NCBI GenBank assembly: GCA_021793645.1
Contig: JAJYSJ010000013.1
Span: 1 to 64,000, forward strand
Direction of reading: 5' to 3'
Length of the DNA: 64,000 nt
From: Bacillota bacterium
Lineage (GTDB): Bacteria; Bacillota; Sulfobacillia; JAJZYS01; JAJYTV01
The position numbers and the translations under genes were made by a program. Shown here piece by piece: positions 51,991 through 57,669 of this stretch. The notes under the pieces were generated by a model. The model saw nothing but the letters and a program-made list of their open reading frames with translations. It ran no database searches and was not told the origin of the DNA. Each line of letters opens with the position of its first letter. Position 1 is the first letter of the stretch.

Positions 51991-52220
51991 ATGCAGACGC
52001 TGGTGCTCAATGCGGACGACGTCCGCGAGCTGCTCTCGCAGGAGGTGTGCATCGGCGCGTTGGAGGATGCTTTTTCTGGCGCTGGGACGAGGCGAGGCCG
52101 TGCAGCCGCTGCGCGTCGCCGCATGGCGTCCTGATGCCTTGGGAGCCATGGCCGCCATGCCGGCGTTTCTCGGGCAGCCGGCCGTGCTCGGGGCCAAGGT
52201 TATCGCCGTGTTTCCTGAAA
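51991..52220 (+). pseudogene. Ornithine cyclodeaminase/mu-crystallin-like gene, 5' part (frameshifted)
   Basis: From ATG 51991: MQTLVLNADDVRELLSQEVC then IGALEDAF, matching the family start; at the TTTTT run near 52070 the frame moves and the next frame continues LALGRGEAVQPLRVAAWRPD, AMAAMPAFLGQPAVLGAKV and IAVFPE. The reading frame is then cut by the insertion element at 52221. Family enzymes bind NAD and act on ornithine, alanine or related amino acids. Two independent breaks make it dead. Confidence 0.82.
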
Positions 52221-52286
52221 CCTCTGTTTCAGAGGTGTGTGGGAATCCGAGGGGGTTGGCTATACTGATCCCTGAGGTGGAACCAC

Positions 52287-53294
52287 ATGGCAGTTCCGGC
52301 GGTACAACAGCTCGCGCAAGTCATCAGCCAACTTCCGCCGCTGGACCAAGAGTTCCTGTATCGTCGTCTGGAGAGGCTTCTCCAGCCCAAACTCAGCCCA
52401 CAGGTCGTCGTAGACTTCAGGGAGAAGCGCTTTGCCAACGGGTTCCGTTGCCCGCACTGCCACGGAACCCACATCCACCGGCACGGCAAGTACAAGGACC
52501 GTTGGCGCTACCGCTGCGTTGACTGCAGGAAGACCTTCAACGACGCGACCGCTTCGCCGCTCGCTGGTTCGCACCGCGACATTGCCACCTGGTTGAAGTA
52601 CGCGAAGTGCATGAGCCAGGGGATGTCGATACGCCGGTCCGCGCAAGAGGTTGGCGTCAGCGTGCCGACCGCCTTCTACTGGCGGCACAAGATCCTCACC
52701 GCGTTGCGCAACCTTCCAAAGCCCTCATTGACGGGCATTGTGGAAGCGGACGAGACCTTCTTCCTGGACTCGCAGAAGGGGTCACGCAATCTCAGGCGAC
52801 CTGCAAGGCACTCAGGTGCCAAGGCACCACTACGCGGCATCAGCCACCACCAGGTCTGTGTGCTCGTCGCGCGCGACAGGCAGACATCCACCGTCTCCGA
52901 GGTCGTCGGGCACGGGCGCGTAACAGCGGAGCAGATAGGGACTGCCTTGGACGGAGTGCTGCACGACTGCGTACTCTGTACTGACGCGGCAAGTGCGTAC
53001 CGCACGTATGCCAACGAGAAGGAGATCCCGCTCGAAGCCCTAAACGCTCGACGGGGCGTGAAGAAGCGGGGCATCTACCACCTCGGCAACGTCAACGGCT
53101 ACCACAGTCGCCTCAAGAGGTGGATTCGTCCCTTCAACGGCGTAAGTACCAAGTACCTGCCGAACTACCTTGTCTGGTTCCAGCGTATAGATTCCATGCA
53201 TAACATTCCCCGCAACGTCGTTGCCAATCGTCTGCTGGATCATAGTCACACACCGATGGTGTTCACTACTACAAAAGATCTTGGTTGTGCTTGA
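52287..53294 (+). CDS. IS1595-family transposase (ISXO2-like DDE domain)
   Basis: 335 residues. An N-terminal zinc ribbon, CPHCHGTHIHRHGKYKDRWR with YRCVDCRKTF, is followed by helix-turn-helix (RSAQEVGVSVPTAFYWRHKI) and the catalytic core GIVEADETFFLDSQKG (first Asp), VLCTDAASAYRTYA (second Asp) and NVNGYHSRLKRWIRPFNGV, where Asn occupies the usual third position. It is intact, so the element could move. A GAGGTGG-type ribosome site is about nine bases before ATG 52287. Confidence 0.9.
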   Translation: MAVPAVQQLAQVISQLPPLDQEFLYRRLERLLQPKLSPQVVVDFREKRFANGFRCPHCHGTHIHRHGKYKDRWRYRCVDCRKTFNDATASPLAGSHRDIATWLKYAKCMSQGMSIRRSAQEVGVSVPTAFYWRHKILTALRNLPKPSLTGIVEADETFFLDSQKGSRNLRRPARHSGAKAPLRGISHHQVCVLVARDRQTSTVSEVVGHGRVTAEQIGTALDGVLHDCVLCTDAASAYRTYANEKEIPLEALNARRGVKKRGIYHLGNVNGYHSRLKRWIRPFNGVSTKYLPNYLVWFQRIDSMHNIPRNVVANRLLDHSHTPMVFTTTKDLGCA

Positions 53295-53309
53295 GTTCGA
53301 CAGTATACT
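53281..53309 (+). promoter_or_regulatory. Promoter for the passenger lipoprotein gene
   Basis: -35 TTGGTT (53281-53286), exactly 17-bp spacer, -10 TATACT (53304-53309), about 20 bases before ATG 53329. It overlaps the transposase stop, so the passenger can be expressed by itself. Confidence 0.65.
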
Positions 53310-53328
53310 GGCAATAGGAGGAAAAGCA

Positions 53329-53634
53329 ATGAAACGCATGATTGTCTTTGTTGCACTTGCTATCGCACTTGTCGGGGCAGGATGTGGAGCACAGAAGGAC
53401 GTCGCGCTGCCTCATGGCTCCATCATTACGTGGCATGGACGGTCGTACGAGGTTTCAGGCAACACGGTGCCTGACTCCAGGGTGCGTTGCAACTTAGGTC
53501 AGATCTCTGGCGTGAGCAGCCCAATTCCTCACGCTTGTCGCCTTGTGGGAAAGGACGCATCGAGTCCCAACAAGACCATCGCGATTCACCTTGGTCCTGG
53601 AAAGAATGTGATCGCATTCTTCATCGGGGAGTGA
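53329..53634 (+). CDS. Small secreted lipoprotein carried by the insertion sequence
   Basis: 101 residues. Lipoprotein signal MKRMIVFVALAIALVGAGC, then a mature domain of about 80 residues with HGSIITWHGRSYEVSGNTVP, two Cys (RVRCNLG and PHACRLVG) that could form a disulfide, and KNVIAFFIGE at the end. GGAGG lies before ATG 53329, and a hairpin terminator follows. I do not recognise the family. It is inside the IS, so it is a passenger gene that travels with the transposase; a role in host benefit or immunity to incoming copies is only speculation. Confidence 0.8.
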   Translation: MKRMIVFVALAIALVGAGCGAQKDVALPHGSIITWHGRSYEVSGNTVPDSRVRCNLGQISGVSSPIPHACRLVGKDASSPNKTIAIHLGPGKNVIAFFIGE

Positions 53635-53716
53635 CTGTCGGCTGACCCCAACTCTCGCTTCTCGGATTAGGAAGCCCCCCGATCGACGCAAGACGATTGA
53701 CGCAAAAATGCAAAGC

Positions 53717-53735
53717 GGGCGGCAGACTGCCGCCC
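53717..53735 (+). terminator. Hairpin terminator at the right end of the insertion sequence
   Basis: GGGCGGCAG-A-CTGCCGCCC, a perfect 9-bp stem, about 80 bases after the lipoprotein stop and just inside the right inverted repeat. It would limit transcription leaving the element. Confidence 0.65.
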
Positions 53736-53772
53736 TAATGAGCCCAATTCCCACACACCTCTAAAACAGAGG

Positions 53773-53990
53773 TTTCCTGAAAACAGCCAGCGCGGCATGC
53801 CCTCGCATCAGGGGGTAGTCGTATTGCACGATCCCCTGGATGGGAGACTTCTGGCCATCGTCGATGCGGGCGCCATCACAGCGATTCGCACAGCTGCCGC
53901 AAGTGCGCTGGCGACGCGGATCTTGGCCCGTGAGGACGCGGGCGTCCTGGCAGGGTGCGGTGCACTATTATGGAGTAAAAGAATGGGTTA
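53773..53990 (+). pseudogene. Ornithine cyclodeaminase-like gene, middle part after the insertion
   Basis: Reading from the repeated TTTCCTGAAA: SQRGMPSHQGVVVLHDPLDG, RLLAIVDAGAITAIRTAAAS, ALATRILAREDAGVLAGCGA. This is the segment just before the Rossmann NAD loop of the family. Similarity ends near 53960 (ALLWSKRMG stop), where a normal gene would continue for about 180 residues. The end has been lost to a second rearrangement. Confidence 0.82.
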
Positions 53991-54191
53991 GGGTGCAGGT
54001 CAACATAACTCTTGAGCAGATTTGGGCGAAGAGACAAAGCACGTCTCTCCTTGGCCTACACACAAGTTTATCCAGGAGTGACCGCAAAGCGGGGTAATTG
54101 CTTTCGCAGAAGGGCCCCTCACCTGTTAGATTGAAAGGTGATGGTCACGAGGTTGAACCACGACATTCTAGCGGAAGGTGAGTTATTCTCT

Positions 54192-55424
54192 ATGCCGTCA
54201 CCGGCAGAGCCTTACCTGTCTCACCAAACTCGAATTGCACGCTACGCCGACGTATCCACTGCCCTCGCGTTACTAAGTGATGAACAGCTTCGCGAGCTAG
54301 TGAAACAGGCTGTGGTCCTTGATTCCGGTATCGGTGGTGCGACGGCGTTGTTGCGGCTTGAGGATACGTTGGTCTTCGTGAAGATCGTTCCACTTACAGA
54401 ATTGGAAAGACGCCCCGAGAATGTCATGTCCACTGCAAACGTGTTCCAACTCCCCACATTTTGTCACTACGGCATAGGTTCGCCAGGCAGTGGCGTGTGG
54501 CGCGAGGTCGCCTCCCACGCCATGACGACGAACTGGGTATTGGCGAAACGGTCTGAGAGCTTTCCGCTGATGTATCACTGGCGGGTGCTACCAAAGACAG
54601 AAAGCCGAATGCCCACCCCTGAGGAACTGTCGGATGTCTCCCGTATGGTCGCGTTCTGGGACGGCTCCTTGGCAGTGCGGGATCGTCTTGAGGCAATTGA
54701 GAAACCGTTGACCAGTGTCGTACTCTTCTGCGAGTACTTTCCCTATAATCTGTACGACTGGCTGACAGAGCAGGTCGCTAGCGGTGAAGATGCTGCCAAC
54801 TCGGCGTTCAATATGTTGGAGCCAGAGTTGCGATCTGCGGTCTCTTTTATGAATGCGAACGGGTTACTACACTTTGATGTTCATTTCAGAAACATTCTTA
54901 CCGACGGACGAGGTATATATATTTCAGACTTCGGTCTTGCGACAAGATCTCGCTTCAAGCTATCCGAGTCCGAACTGGAGTTTCTCGGGAAAAACAGGAC
55001 TCATGACGGGTGTTATGTGGTGACCGAGTTAGTGAACTGGCTTGTAATGGCTTTGACCGGCCTGATGCAGCGAACAGACCGCGTAGACTTCATACGACGG
55101 TGCGCTGACGGTTACGAGCCGACGGAGGTTATGGCTTCAGCCGCAGCGATCATCAAACGTTACGCACCCATAGCCGTCGTGATGAACGAATTCTATAGGA
55201 ATCTCGATGTGCCGCGATCTGGTAGCCATGGGCCGGCCCCTCGGCGAGGACGGCCAGCACCAGAAGTGCGGGGAGGGACGGAAGCAGCGCATCCATACGG
55301 AGCCACCACAGTGGGTATGGCGCATCTGTCAAGCTCTCCGTTGCCTGCACTGAGAGCAAGAGGGGGCTGCCCCTCTGCGTCCGCTCGGCCGCGTTCGGGA
55401 CAGCCCCGTTGGTGCGCGTTCTAG
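54192..55424 (+). CDS. Protein-kinase-like phosphotransferase with chimeric C-terminus
   Basis: About 410 codons. Kinase-like features: LEDTLVFVKIVPLTELE (strand with Lys), VVLFCEYFPYNLYDWLTEQV (hinge), MNANGLLHFDVHFRNILTDG (catalytic loop HxDxHxxN) and GIYISDFGLATRSRFKLSES (DFG). It could be a Ser/Thr kinase or an aminoglycoside-phosphotransferase-like enzyme. Base composition is lower in GC and codon use differs from neighbours, which suggests transfer. After about FYRNLDVP (near 55205) the frame runs antisense through a PadR gene fragment, so the last 70 residues are not native. ATG 54192 follows GGAAGGTGAG; GTG 54138 is a longer alternative. Confidence 0.65.
   Translation: MPSPAEPYLSHQTRIARYADVSTALALLSDEQLRELVKQAVVLDSGIGGATALLRLEDTLVFVKIVPLTELERRPENVMSTANVFQLPTFCHYGIGSPGSGVWREVASHAMTTNWVLAKRSESFPLMYHWRVLPKTESRMPTPEELSDVSRMVAFWDGSLAVRDRLEAIEKPLTSVVLFCEYFPYNLYDWLTEQVASGEDAANSAFNMLEPELRSAVSFMNANGLLHFDVHFRNILTDGRGIYISDFGLATRSRFKLSESELEFLGKNRTHDGCYVVTELVNWLVMALTGLMQRTDRVDFIRRCADGYEPTEVMASAAAIIKRYAPIAVVMNEFYRNLDVPRSGSHGPAPRRGRPAPEVRGGTEAAHPYGATTVGMAHLSSSPLPALRARGGCPSASARPRSGQPRWCAF
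55205..55296 (-). pseudogene. PadR-family regulator, N-terminal fragment
   Basis: From ATG 55296 the minus strand reads MDALLPSLPALLVLAVLAEG then PAHGYQIAAH, the hallmark first helices of PadR regulators. The frame then loses similarity near 55205 and stops at 55153. About 30 of roughly 110 residues remain. The kinase-like gene lies over it on the other strand. Confidence 0.65.
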
Positions 55425-56560
55425 TATCCGTTGCCCGGGTAGCTCCAGAGATGGCCGCCAATGGGGTTGTTCGTTGCGCCAGGCACGATGCCGTTCGGCA
55501 AGAGATCCATGCCGTCCGGTATGTCGAGGTATCCGGGAGCACTGCCGGGCACTCCGGTGTGGCCGTACTGCCAGACAATTTGATTGGACTTCGGGTCGAT
55601 GATGATCACCCGGTCGTTGTAGTCGTCGTTCAACATCACGAGACCGTTCGGGAGCTGCACGGCGAGAGAGGGGTGGTTTAGGGCGCCGGGGCCGCAACTG
55701 ACCTGGTATTGCCAGAGGACCTTACCTTGGGGCGACATGATCACAATCGCTCCCGGCTGCGTGTAGAAGGCGCAGATGATGTTGCCGCTCGGGGTGAAGT
55801 TCGCGTCGGACGGGTAGTAGAAGGTGCTCGGGAAGTGCACGGTGTACTGGATCTGGCCCTGCTTATCAAGCAGGATGGCGTCGTTGCCGCCGATCTGTGT
55901 GACGAGCATGCCGCCGTTCGGTGCGGGGAAGTCTCCGTTCGGGGCGCCGAAGGTCGTCGGCGGGTTCACGCTGTAGACCCCGGTCTGGCCGTACTGCTTG
56001 ATGATCTGGTGCGTCTTGCGGTCGATGAACAGGATGCGCTGGTTTCTGATGTCGGCGACCGTGATCACCTGGCCGTTCGGCGTGTCGTAGAGGAACGCGT
56101 CGTCGGGGGTGTTCAGGTAGCCGGGCACGCTCCCCGCGACGCCCGCGTGCCCGTAGGTCCAAACGATCTGCTGCGTCTTGAAGTTGATCACCGCAAGGGT
56201 GTCTTGTCCTTCCTCATTCGTGATGATCTCGTTGAAGCGGGGGCTGAAGAAGACGTCGTCGTCGTCGTGGATCGGCGAGGTGGTGCCGGGGGACGGGAAC
56301 TGCCAGACAATCTTCTTCTGCGGCGTGACGAGCAGGATGCGGTTGTTGTGCGAGTCCGCGATCAGTACATCGCCCGGAAGAATCGAACTTGCGGTCGTCG
56401 ATCCCCAGGGGAGATTTGGCTTTTTGGTGGCTGCGGACTTCTGCGCGACTGTGGGATGCGCCTTCGGCTTGGGCGCCTGAGCCGTTTGGCCGCACGCGGC
56501 GAGCGGCAGTGAGAGAAGCAGCAGCAGCGCGATGAGGGACATTCGAAAGCGGATCGCCAT
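55421..56560 (-). CDS. Secreted beta-propeller lipoprotein (arylsulfotransferase/PQQ-like repeats)
   Basis: About 379 residues. Lipoprotein signal FRMSLIALLLLLSLPLAAC. The rest is a run of about six blades with the pattern N-x-I-L-x-V/I-x-x-x-T/K-x-x-I-V-W-x-Y-G: DVLIADSHNNRILLVTPQKK, NFKTQQIVWTYGHAGVAGS, DIRNQRILFIDRKTHQIIKQ, DPKSNQIVWQYGHTGVPGS. The fold suggests binding rather than a given reaction; no catalytic motif is visible. ATG 56560 is chosen at the signal peptide; a start at 56542 also works. Upstream frame to 56767 is shadow. Confidence 0.78.
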   Translation of the reverse strand: MAIRFRMSLIALLLLLSLPLAACGQTAQAPKPKAHPTVAQKSAATKKPNLPWGSTTASSILPGDVLIADSHNNRILLVTPQKKIVWQFPSPGTTSPIHDDDDVFFSPRFNEIITNEEGQDTLAVINFKTQQIVWTYGHAGVAGSVPGYLNTPDDAFLYDTPNGQVITVADIRNQRILFIDRKTHQIIKQYGQTGVYSVNPPTTFGAPNGDFPAPNGGMLVTQIGGNDAILLDKQGQIQYTVHFPSTFYYPSDANFTPSGNIICAFYTQPGAIVIMSPQGKVLWQYQVSCGPGALNHPSLAVQLPNGLVMLNDDYNDRVIIIDPKSNQIVWQYGHTGVPGSAPGYLDIPDGMDLLPNGIVPGATNNPIGGHLWSYPGNGY

Positions 56561-56757
56561 CGCTTCAACACCACCACTCTTGGGAAATTGCGAGGCCAGT
56601 CTACCATGTCCAAGCGCCCCAATGCGCGGCTCCCCTGACTGCAATGGCACAGGCAGGTTTGCCCAGGGACCGAGCGAAATGGAACCCCAGTAAGCAGCGT
56701 CCGACGACTGGCCATCACAAACAGCGATGGCAGTGTTCTTGGAGAGGTGAGAGTTAA

Positions 56758-57669
56758 TTGCGCACATTCGAAAGGGCAGGGCTCCCCAGGCTGCCGGTCA
56801 TCGGTCAGGGCACCTGGTTCATGGGCGAACGACGCGCGCAGCGCTCCGCAGAAGTCGACGCCCTGCGGCTCGGCATCTCGCTGGGCATGACGCTCATCAA
56901 CTCGGCGGAGCTCTACGGTGCGGGCGGTGCGGAGGAAGTCGTCGGCGACGCGATCACGGACTGCCGCGACGATGTCTTCGTGGTCACCAAGGTGTGGCCG
57001 TCCCACGCGCGCGCCCAGGACGTCGAACTCGCTGTGCGCGAGTCGTGCAGGCGCATGCGGACCCCGTACGTCGATCTAGTGCTGCTCCACTGGCCGACGC
57101 GCAGCGTTCCCCTCAAGGAGACAGTGAACGGGTTGCGCGCTATTCAGCGCGCCGGGCTTGCACGCCACGTCGGCGTGAGCAACTTCGACGTCGCATGGCT
57201 CGAGCGTCTGCGCCGCTGCGAAGAGCACCCAGGCGAGATGCTCGCGAACGAAGTACCTTATAGCCTGTCGGAGCGCGGCGTCGAGCGGGGCGTGCTGCAG
57301 GAAGCGCAGGAGCACGGCAGGCTCGTGCTGGCATACAGTCCGCTCGCACACGGGCGCTACAGCGGCTGGGAGGGCAAGCCGGGACTGCTTGCGGCAGCTC
57401 GGACGCATAGCGCGACGCCGCTGCAGATCGCGCTCGCGTGGACGGTGCAGCGCGGGGGAATCGTGGCGATCCCGAAGGCCCTCTCGCCCGCGCACATCCG
57501 TGCGAATGCTGCTGCTGGCGACATCGTGATCAGCCCGGAGGAGATGGCGGCGATCGGGCTGGACTTCCCAGAGGCGACGAAGCCCTTCCGCCCAGCCCTT
57601 CCGGCAAACATGGCGATGCACCGACTGGCGTTTGGCGCCATGCAGCTGCAAAAGCGGCTGCGCGGCTGA
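56758..57669 (+). CDS. Aldo/keto reductase
   Basis: 303 residues, TIM barrel. Family motifs: LGISLGMTLINSAELYGAGG, DVFVVTKVWPSHARAQDVEL with catalytic Lys, YVDLVLLHWPTRSVPLKETV with His, HVGVSNFDVAWLERLRRC, and the NADPH motif AIPKALSPAHIRANAAA. The usual catalytic Asp of (I)DTAexYG is Asn here (INSAELYG); the Tyr remains. Reduces carbonyls with NADPH. TTG 56758 follows GGAGAGGTGAG by several bases. Divergent from the propeller lipoprotein gene. Confidence 0.85.
   Translation: MRTFERAGLPRLPVIGQGTWFMGERRAQRSAEVDALRLGISLGMTLINSAELYGAGGAEEVVGDAITDCRDDVFVVTKVWPSHARAQDVELAVRESCRRMRTPYVDLVLLHWPTRSVPLKETVNGLRAIQRAGLARHVGVSNFDVAWLERLRRCEEHPGEMLANEVPYSLSERGVERGVLQEAQEHGRLVLAYSPLAHGRYSGWEGKPGLLAAARTHSATPLQIALAWTVQRGGIVAIPKALSPAHIRANAAAGDIVISPEEMAAIGLDFPEATKPFRPALPANMAMHRLAFGAMQLQKRLRG

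Follow-up and report, generated by a model that had tools for sequence, protein, structure and literature searches.

Most insertion sequences (ISs) encode a transposase only, though a few carry one passenger gene. A locus in the window (the whole 64,000-nucleotide stretch of Bacillota DNA analysed here) raises the question of what a lipoprotein gene is doing next to an IS1595-family transposase. Does the gene travel with the element, or is it a host gene that happens to have an IS for a neighbor? The reading favored here, with a probability of roughly 0.85, is that the window element is an autonomous transporter IS (tIS) of the IS1595 family, a two-module unit with exchangeable cargo behind a promoter of the element's own. 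The tIS kind is already known; what is new is the variant found here, in which exchangeable lipoproteins occupy a constant expression slot.

The Element in the Window

The complete element spans 52220-53773 (1,554 bp), and the transposase and the 101-residue lipoprotein gene both lie between its ends. The left terminal inverted repeat (52220-52246, plus strand) and the right one (53747-53773, minus strand) are identical at 26 of 27 positions, and homologous ends are found in the sister copies. A target-site duplication, TTCCTGAA, flanks the element at 52212-52219 and 53774-53781; its length of 8 bp was fixed via the copies C28, C20, C14, and C67. The earlier note had described a complete IS1595-type element, and this is borne out by the repeats, the exact duplication and the intact transposase. 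Two of its measurements need adjusting. The terminal repeats are real but 27 bp long rather than 26 bp, the comparison with sister copies making the element one base longer on each side. The flanking direct repeat is real as well, but it consists of 8 bp and not of the 10 bp in TTTCCTGAAA. The longer version is ruled out by C28 (TAAGTCAA) and C20 (ACTCCGTA), which are compatible with 8 bp only, and its surplus matching bases are element end bases plus chance. Could the whole arrangement be a chance pattern? It is not: a 26/27 repeat is combined with an exact 8-bp duplication, and the arrangement is repeated at eight further sites. Since the cargo gene lies within the repeats and the target duplication, it travels with the window element.

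The element sits in a host gene of the ornithine cyclodeaminase/mu-crystallin type (by resemblance), with the 5' part at 52001-52219 and, from a comparison of the joined flanks, the continuation at 53782-53963, both on the plus strand. Removing the element and one duplication in silico restores the open frame of this gene, and uninterrupted versions are present in two congeners (G003:C308, 87% identity; G001:C24, 79%). The host gene is broken again about 180 bp past the element, and a protein-kinase-like ORF follows at 54138-55424; no repeats were found around the second break or this ORF (window 53964-55424). The minus strand at 55421-56767 encodes another, larger lipoprotein-like protein, in which LVTPQKKIVWQ-type motifs recur; it has no connection with the element.

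The transposase (335 aa, 52287-53294, plus strand) consists of a zinc ribbon and a DDE_Tnp_IS1595 domain with conserved D155, D233, N270, and H273. The claim that it is intact holds, and the curated cut-offs of both NCBIfam and Pfam assign it to the IS1595 family (NF033547, 193.5 bits against a cut-off of 75; PF12762, 46.7 against 27; PF12760, 27.8 against 25.4). The catalytic triad of this family is made of two D plus E, N or H, depending on the subgroup. D155 and D233 are invariant among 26 transposases, and the third catalytic position is N270 or H273, not E. The transposase promoter has a probable -10, TATACT, at 52261-52266 on the plus strand, within a sequence common to the sister copies (GGGTATACTGA). 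A transposase domain with an N-terminal zinc ribbon, terminal repeats and an 8-bp duplication thus place the window element in the IS1595 family. What makes it a tIS is a passenger (53329-53634) with no role in transposition that lies inside the ends together with the transposase.

Sister Copies and Transposase-Free Cassettes

A search for copies with or without the passenger had been proposed as a check. It found sister copies, each readable one with a different cargo gene in the slot. The host is represented only by draft metagenome bins, and the copies C53, C43, and G006_C114 stop at contig ends. At the DNA level the window's own genome has four long copies (C53, C28, C10, and C43; 85-88% identity). 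A further, diverged copy, C14, is in two pieces, and C26 and C20 hold remnants. The 101-residue gene is absent from every own-genome sister copy that is readable 3' of the transposase, and another gene takes its position. C53 has a BNR/YCF48-like lipoprotein there, C28 a DUF4232-like lipoprotein, C10 a membrane protein and C14 a 392-aa lipoprotein, and there are further cargo genes in C26 and C20. The C14 transposase (L019 3471-5887) is split by an element with overlapping IS3-type orfA/orfB frames; the cargo downstream is open.

Exact 8-bp duplications were found at eight further sites (C28, C14, C20, C67, G002_C36, G005_C4, G004_C60, and G004_C47, the last read by eye). The earlier note had reasoned that copies lacking the gene, together with a fixed chromosomal place for it, would speak against a passenger. 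Copies without this gene do exist, and they carry other cargo inside duplications of their own, so the passenger hypothesis stands. Three copies, C20 (1,245 bp, duplication ACTCCGTA), C67 (665 bp, TTGCCGTT) and G002_C36 (783 bp), have both repeats and intact duplications with no transposase between them. This is the anatomy of a mobile insertion cassette (MIC), which the window copy does not have. The C67 cassette (L030, G000:C67) contains a lone GNAT acetyltransferase gene behind the shared junction. No complete element without cargo occurs among the copies found. G002_C228 was considered as such a copy and rejected, because its cargo is cut off by a second IS, IS1380-like by resemblance, which lies immediately behind the ribosome site (L069 4540 onward).

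A Constant Junction at the Cargo Start Codon

What do elements with unrelated cargo have in common? Cross-copy comparison reveals a constant junction block, AGTATACTGG(A)AATAGGAGG...ATG, which lies at 53302-53331 (plus strand) in the window copy and ends at the cargo start codon. The consensus among copies is CTTGAG...AATGGAGTATACTGGAAATAGGAGG, then about 7 bases, then ATG. A 20-base junction pattern with up to three mismatches matches the own genome at seven places and five relatives at 16, against 0 for a reversed-pattern control, and a sequence model of the block detects about 34 sites in nine of the ten family genomes. In pairwise profiles of elements with different cargo, identity is mostly 82-96% as far as the start codon of the cargo; beyond it the value drops to about 40%, as between unrelated DNAs. 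The average over 199 pairs with unrelated cargo stays high across the ribosome site as far as ATGAA, after which it is close to background. This drop puts the exchange point at the start codon or very near it. Like the anatomy and the duplications, the constant block is read directly from the sequence. A shared signal peptide found no general support as the homologous swap point: third-codon identity over codons 2-8 is 0.29, little above the 0.25 and 0.24 of later stretches. A few cargo pairs, e.g., G006_C45/G004_C131, may share more beyond the junction. The unrelated cargo lipoproteins of G002_C329 (L072) and G004_C47 (L062) have a short post-lipobox stretch, IRHGGP, in common, hinting that recombination can also fall within the cargo.

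The block bears on a further claim, that the lipoprotein gene has a promoter and ribosome site of its own. It does not. The same block stands ahead of unrelated cargo, so both belong to the element. The ribosome site itself is confirmed as AGGAGG at 53316-53321 and is kept in nearly all sister copies. The -35/-10 pair at 53281-53309 is a mixed case. An alignment of 20 junctions gives TTGGTT at 53281-53286, a 17-bp spacer and TATACT at 53304-53309 (plus strand). TATACT is the -10 conserved across the sister elements, but the usual -35, TTGAGT about 16 bp upstream of it in other copies, is lost here: a 9-bp deletion has shifted the ancestral TTGAGT, at 53291, out of register. With the usual -35 displaced, TTGGTT is the only properly spaced candidate in the window copy, and a simple sigma-70 scan gives the window cargo promoter no score. 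The proposed terminator, too, is confirmed in part only. There is a strong GC-rich hairpin at 53717-53735 (GGGCGGCAGACTGCCGCCC, fold z -2.3), a possible terminator, but it has no T-run on the plus (coding) strand and a terminator scan calls the opposite strand only.

What the Slot Carries

The cargo set was gathered via the junction block from ten genomes of one uncultured Bacillota family, a procedure that misses cassettes without the block. Its 29 cargo genes form 17 families with no detectable mutual similarity. Fourteen of the 17 are lipoproteins (signal peptide plus lipobox), compared with about 2% of ordinary genes. A strict lipobox rule applied to the first 24 cargo sites gives 16/24, against 7/373 for ORFs in a 400-kb sample of the own genome (Fisher p ~1e-17, kinship of copies ignored). 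Since the cargo copies are related, the family count of 14/17 is the fairer figure. The remaining three families are two of membrane proteins (C10/G008_C232 and G008_C225) and the GNAT acetyltransferase of C67, and because of them the slot is not strictly lipoprotein-specific. The structure of the C26/G005_C4 cargo type yielded only a common Ig-like domain. A suggestion that cargo has moved more recently than transposase (dS 0.26 for cargo vs. 0.54 for transposase in G004_C60/G005_C4) was set aside, the sliding profile having no clear step.

Where did the cargo come from? For four cargo types, homologues free of any IS are found on chromosomes of the same bacterial family. That of the window cargo is G002:C75 and that of the DUF4232 type is G007:C49. 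Homologues of the C26/G005_C4 and C14 types lie adjacent to each other, beside a formate-dehydrogenase-like gene, in G005:C40 and G007:C10 (L205 1498-3623, L201 111-2254), and these two types also occur separately as element cargo. One clue to the origin of the promoter block is that the chromosomal C26/G005_C4-type genes have a weakened version of the junction, equally far from the start as in the elements, with no more than seven mismatches in 5/6 of them (a level reached by 0.23% of 6,137 control starts). The element may have taken its promoter and ribosome site from a gene of this type, or such genes may be old insertions whose ends have been lost. The block is absent near other chromosomal lipoproteins in the own-genome sample.

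The 101-Residue Lipoprotein

The window cargo (53329-53634, plus strand) is, as claimed, a gene for a 101-aa lipoprotein, with a signal peptide and the lipobox VGAG-C19 (MKRMIVFVALAIALVGAGC). These were recognized by inspection, and the strict lipobox rule used for the cargo statistics misses the protein. The lipobox cysteine and its surroundings are kept in the sole close homologue, G002:C75 (44-47%), which lacks element ends and is located beside a molybdopterin oxidoreductase gene. There is no junction block upstream of this homologue and no obvious lantibiotic locus around it. Two other candidate homologues, G044:C36 and G340:C136, were discarded because the match is weak and a stop falls within each frame.

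The earlier note had also pointed to homology search and structure prediction for this protein. The former drew a blank, with nothing significant in PDB sequences (E 1 or better), PHROGs, Pfam or NCBIfam; the latter brought out a weak likeness in fold to NisI and SpaI, the lipoproteins that guard producers against their own lantibiotics. The predicted model, built from a two-sequence alignment, is beta-rich and has a mean pLDDT of 70 (62-88 by block over residues 21-101). It contains two cysteines beyond the lipobox that are conserved in the G002:C75 homologue. NisI/SpaI domains occupy the top four VIA-align rows (Z 6.0, 5.1, 4.8, and 3.9; next unrelated row 3.2), although a Z below 8 may mean no more than a common fold arrangement. 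NisI is also the first Foldseek match, at an E of 0.53. The likeliest role of the window cargo is that of a surface lipoprotein with a NisI/SpaI-like fold.

What if the likeness extends to function? The window lipoprotein would then be a lantibiotic-immunity protein of the NisI/SpaI kind, and the element would spread peptide immunity. The agreement of the two structure searches argues for this. The quality of the model and the Z values argue against it, as do the lack of a PDB or Pfam sequence match and the position of the G002:C75 relative outside any obvious lantibiotic locus, and on balance it is rather unlikely. The window cargo resembles NisI and SpaI in being a small secreted lipoprotein whose mature part is predicted to have a fold that ranks these two first. 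It differs in having no detectable sequence similarity to them and in lying outside a lantibiotic operon.

Related Elements in Bacilli

Of 151 genomes of the class, those with the transposase at E < 1e-40 all belong to one family. In named genomes the nearest transposases are from Bacillota bins and then, for the most part, from Bacilli at 40-46%. Among elements of Paenibacillus, Bacillus, Niallia, Neobacillus, and others, both ends could be placed in 38, and the 8-bp duplication is exact in 36 of these. They contain 0.36-2.4 kb 3' of the transposase, usually with one gene on either strand. By Pfam, the passengers include streptomycin adenylyltransferase, APH, GNAT, methyltransferase, RibD_C, HAD, DinB/MST, glyoxalase, metallophosphatase, and SUKH proteins. 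Each cargo has a separate promoter and there is no common junction; lipoproteins are a minority (about 5/38 by rule). The Bacilli elements thus show neither a constant slot nor a lipoprotein bias, which makes both of these traits of the window's bacterial family.

Some of these elements deserve mention for themselves. One in Paenibacillus rubinfantis (L106 3357-5458), with an exact 8-bp duplication, has an ANT(6)-type adenylyltransferase as its sole passenger (Pfam 2.5e-121), and another in Paenibacillus lutrae (L093 3411-5770), likewise with an exact duplication, has only an APH-type phosphotransferase (1e-32). Elements with GGCTGTTTTCG-type ends (e.g., L096-L101, L110-L113, L130, and L134) mostly have the passenger on the opposite strand, reading inward from the right repeat, whereas with GGCTATGTTAAA-type ends it is mostly on the transposase strand. 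That the Bacilli elements each have a different single gene, ANT(6)- and APH-type genes among them, suggests that a large IS1595 branch is a general one-gene carrier overlooked by annotation pipelines.

How Might the Slot Work?

The favored reading, a two-module tIS, can be put as follows. The constant module would consist of the left repeat, transposase, promoter, ribosome site, and ATG, and the variable module of the cargo gene plus the DNA 3' of it, after which comes the right repeat. The transposase presumably recognizes both repeats, moves the whole unit and creates the 8-bp duplication, with the cargo carried along. Cargo would be expressed from the promoter and ribosome site of the element, and any gene joined at the ATG would be switched on wherever the element inserts. 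In this bacterial family the slot appears to have been filled repeatedly, mostly by lipoprotein genes from host chromosomes. Transposase-less copies with both repeats would amount to small mobile cassettes, which a transposase acting in trans could move. Replacing cargo at the start codon would need recombination that also supplies the right repeat. This might come about by a deletion once the element has inserted beside a host gene, or by recombination with another copy downstream of such a gene. That the element is active today, that its cargo is expressed and swapped by recombination, and that there is a benefit are inferences. As to the benefit, the window lipoprotein might perhaps, on slender grounds, confer immunity to a membrane-active peptide.

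Is a slot needed to explain the data? Perhaps each element is an ordinary tIS that captured one host gene by chance, the lipoprotein excess reflects tolerated neighbors, and the promoter is a remnant of an IS end. The related Bacilli elements behave in just this way, with one passenger of any kind in either orientation behind its own promoter, and part of the cargo in the window's family is not lipoprotein. This account is possible but unlikely, as it leaves unexplained why, throughout the family's genomes, unrelated cargo begins at an identical base, the start codon, behind one and the same promoter and ribosome site, and why lipoproteins dominate the cargo families so far above background. 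A much less probable account sees the lipoprotein genes as fixed genes of the host that share a native promoter, beside which the IS inserted repeatedly or which it captured secondarily. The degenerate junction in five of the six chromosomal homologues of one cargo type is in keeping with it, and the block may indeed stem from a host lipoprotein gene. Yet cargo is enclosed by exact 8-bp duplications in nine cases, the interrupted gene is intact in relatives, and the block is missing from other chromosomal lipoproteins and from the homologue of the window cargo. For the window copy the account is contradicted outright, because the duplication encloses the cargo.

It might also be that cargo is neutral filler for the host, kept since the right repeat lies beyond it. 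Most cargo has no Pfam assignment and no known phenotype, as filler would. However, dN/dS is 0.18-0.40 for ten homologous cargo pairs (several of them distant with saturated synonymous sites, and one including a chromosomal gene), and therefore the cargo proteins have been selected to keep their sequence. Open frames and signal peptides are retained, and the transposase-free C20, C67, and G002_C36 still have an open cargo frame. Part of the constraint could predate capture, one pair being IS-borne vs. chromosomal and several being distant. Neutral filler is nonetheless improbable. The purifying selection is, like the 17 families, the lipoprotein excess and the IS-free homologues, a direct observation on the genomes compared. 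A bolder version of the favored tIS reading holds that the slot is a dedicated one, which evolved in this lineage from a plain insertion sequence for an integron-like sampling of host lipoprotein genes, exchanged time and again at its promoter, ribosome site and start codon. It would spread and vary the surface lipoproteins of the family (some perhaps for immunity) and would have arisen from the 5' region of one captured host lipoprotein gene. This is tentative, with odds clearly short of even. On the favored reading itself, a whole lineage has exchangeable cargo behind a constant promoter, biased to surface lipoproteins, and bacteria thereby have a simple means of duplicating, turning on and diversifying surface proteins that needs no integron, plasmid or phage.

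Comparison with Known Systems

Titles, abstracts, and passages, with subscription literature and ISfinder outside the search, yielded no lipoprotein-carrying IS1595 element and no constant promoter slot. That IS1595 elements with passengers were already known, as the earlier note had stated, is right. They are the tIS of Siguier, Gagnevin and Chandler (2009), as cited in passages of PMC3129680, PMC11891212, and PMC9330008, where the transcription regulator in ISNha5 is given as an example of a passenger. The window element likewise has an IS1595-family transposase, terminal repeats, an 8-bp duplication and a passenger unrelated to transposition. It differs in that its lineage has a constant block of promoter, ribosome site, and ATG before 17 unrelated, mostly lipoprotein, cargo families. 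The Bacilli IS1595 elements are also one-gene carriers with repeats and 8-bp duplications, and they differ in having promoters of their own and no constant junction. At the simple end of the family is ISApl4 (IS1016 subgroup), described in a passage of PMC12561309 as 712 bp long with a transposase only; it shares the transposase family and the 8-bp duplications with the window element and has no passenger.

IS231 and MIC231 are modular IS4-family elements and mobile insertion cassettes of the Bacillus cereus group, according to passages in PMC2266710 and PMC6542083. Both sets comprise autonomous ISs and transposase-free cassettes with common ends and varied passengers. The transposase family is another one, however, and the extra DNA of IS231 is placed between the left repeat and the transposase in the passage of PMC2266710, whereas in the window lineage it lies 3' of the transposase, behind the shared promoter. 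The integron cassette offers a working comparison rather than membership: interchangeable genes would in both cases be driven by a fixed promoter of the element, and the window lineage differs in being moved by an IS1595-type transposase, with no integrase or attC-like site noticed in the elements.
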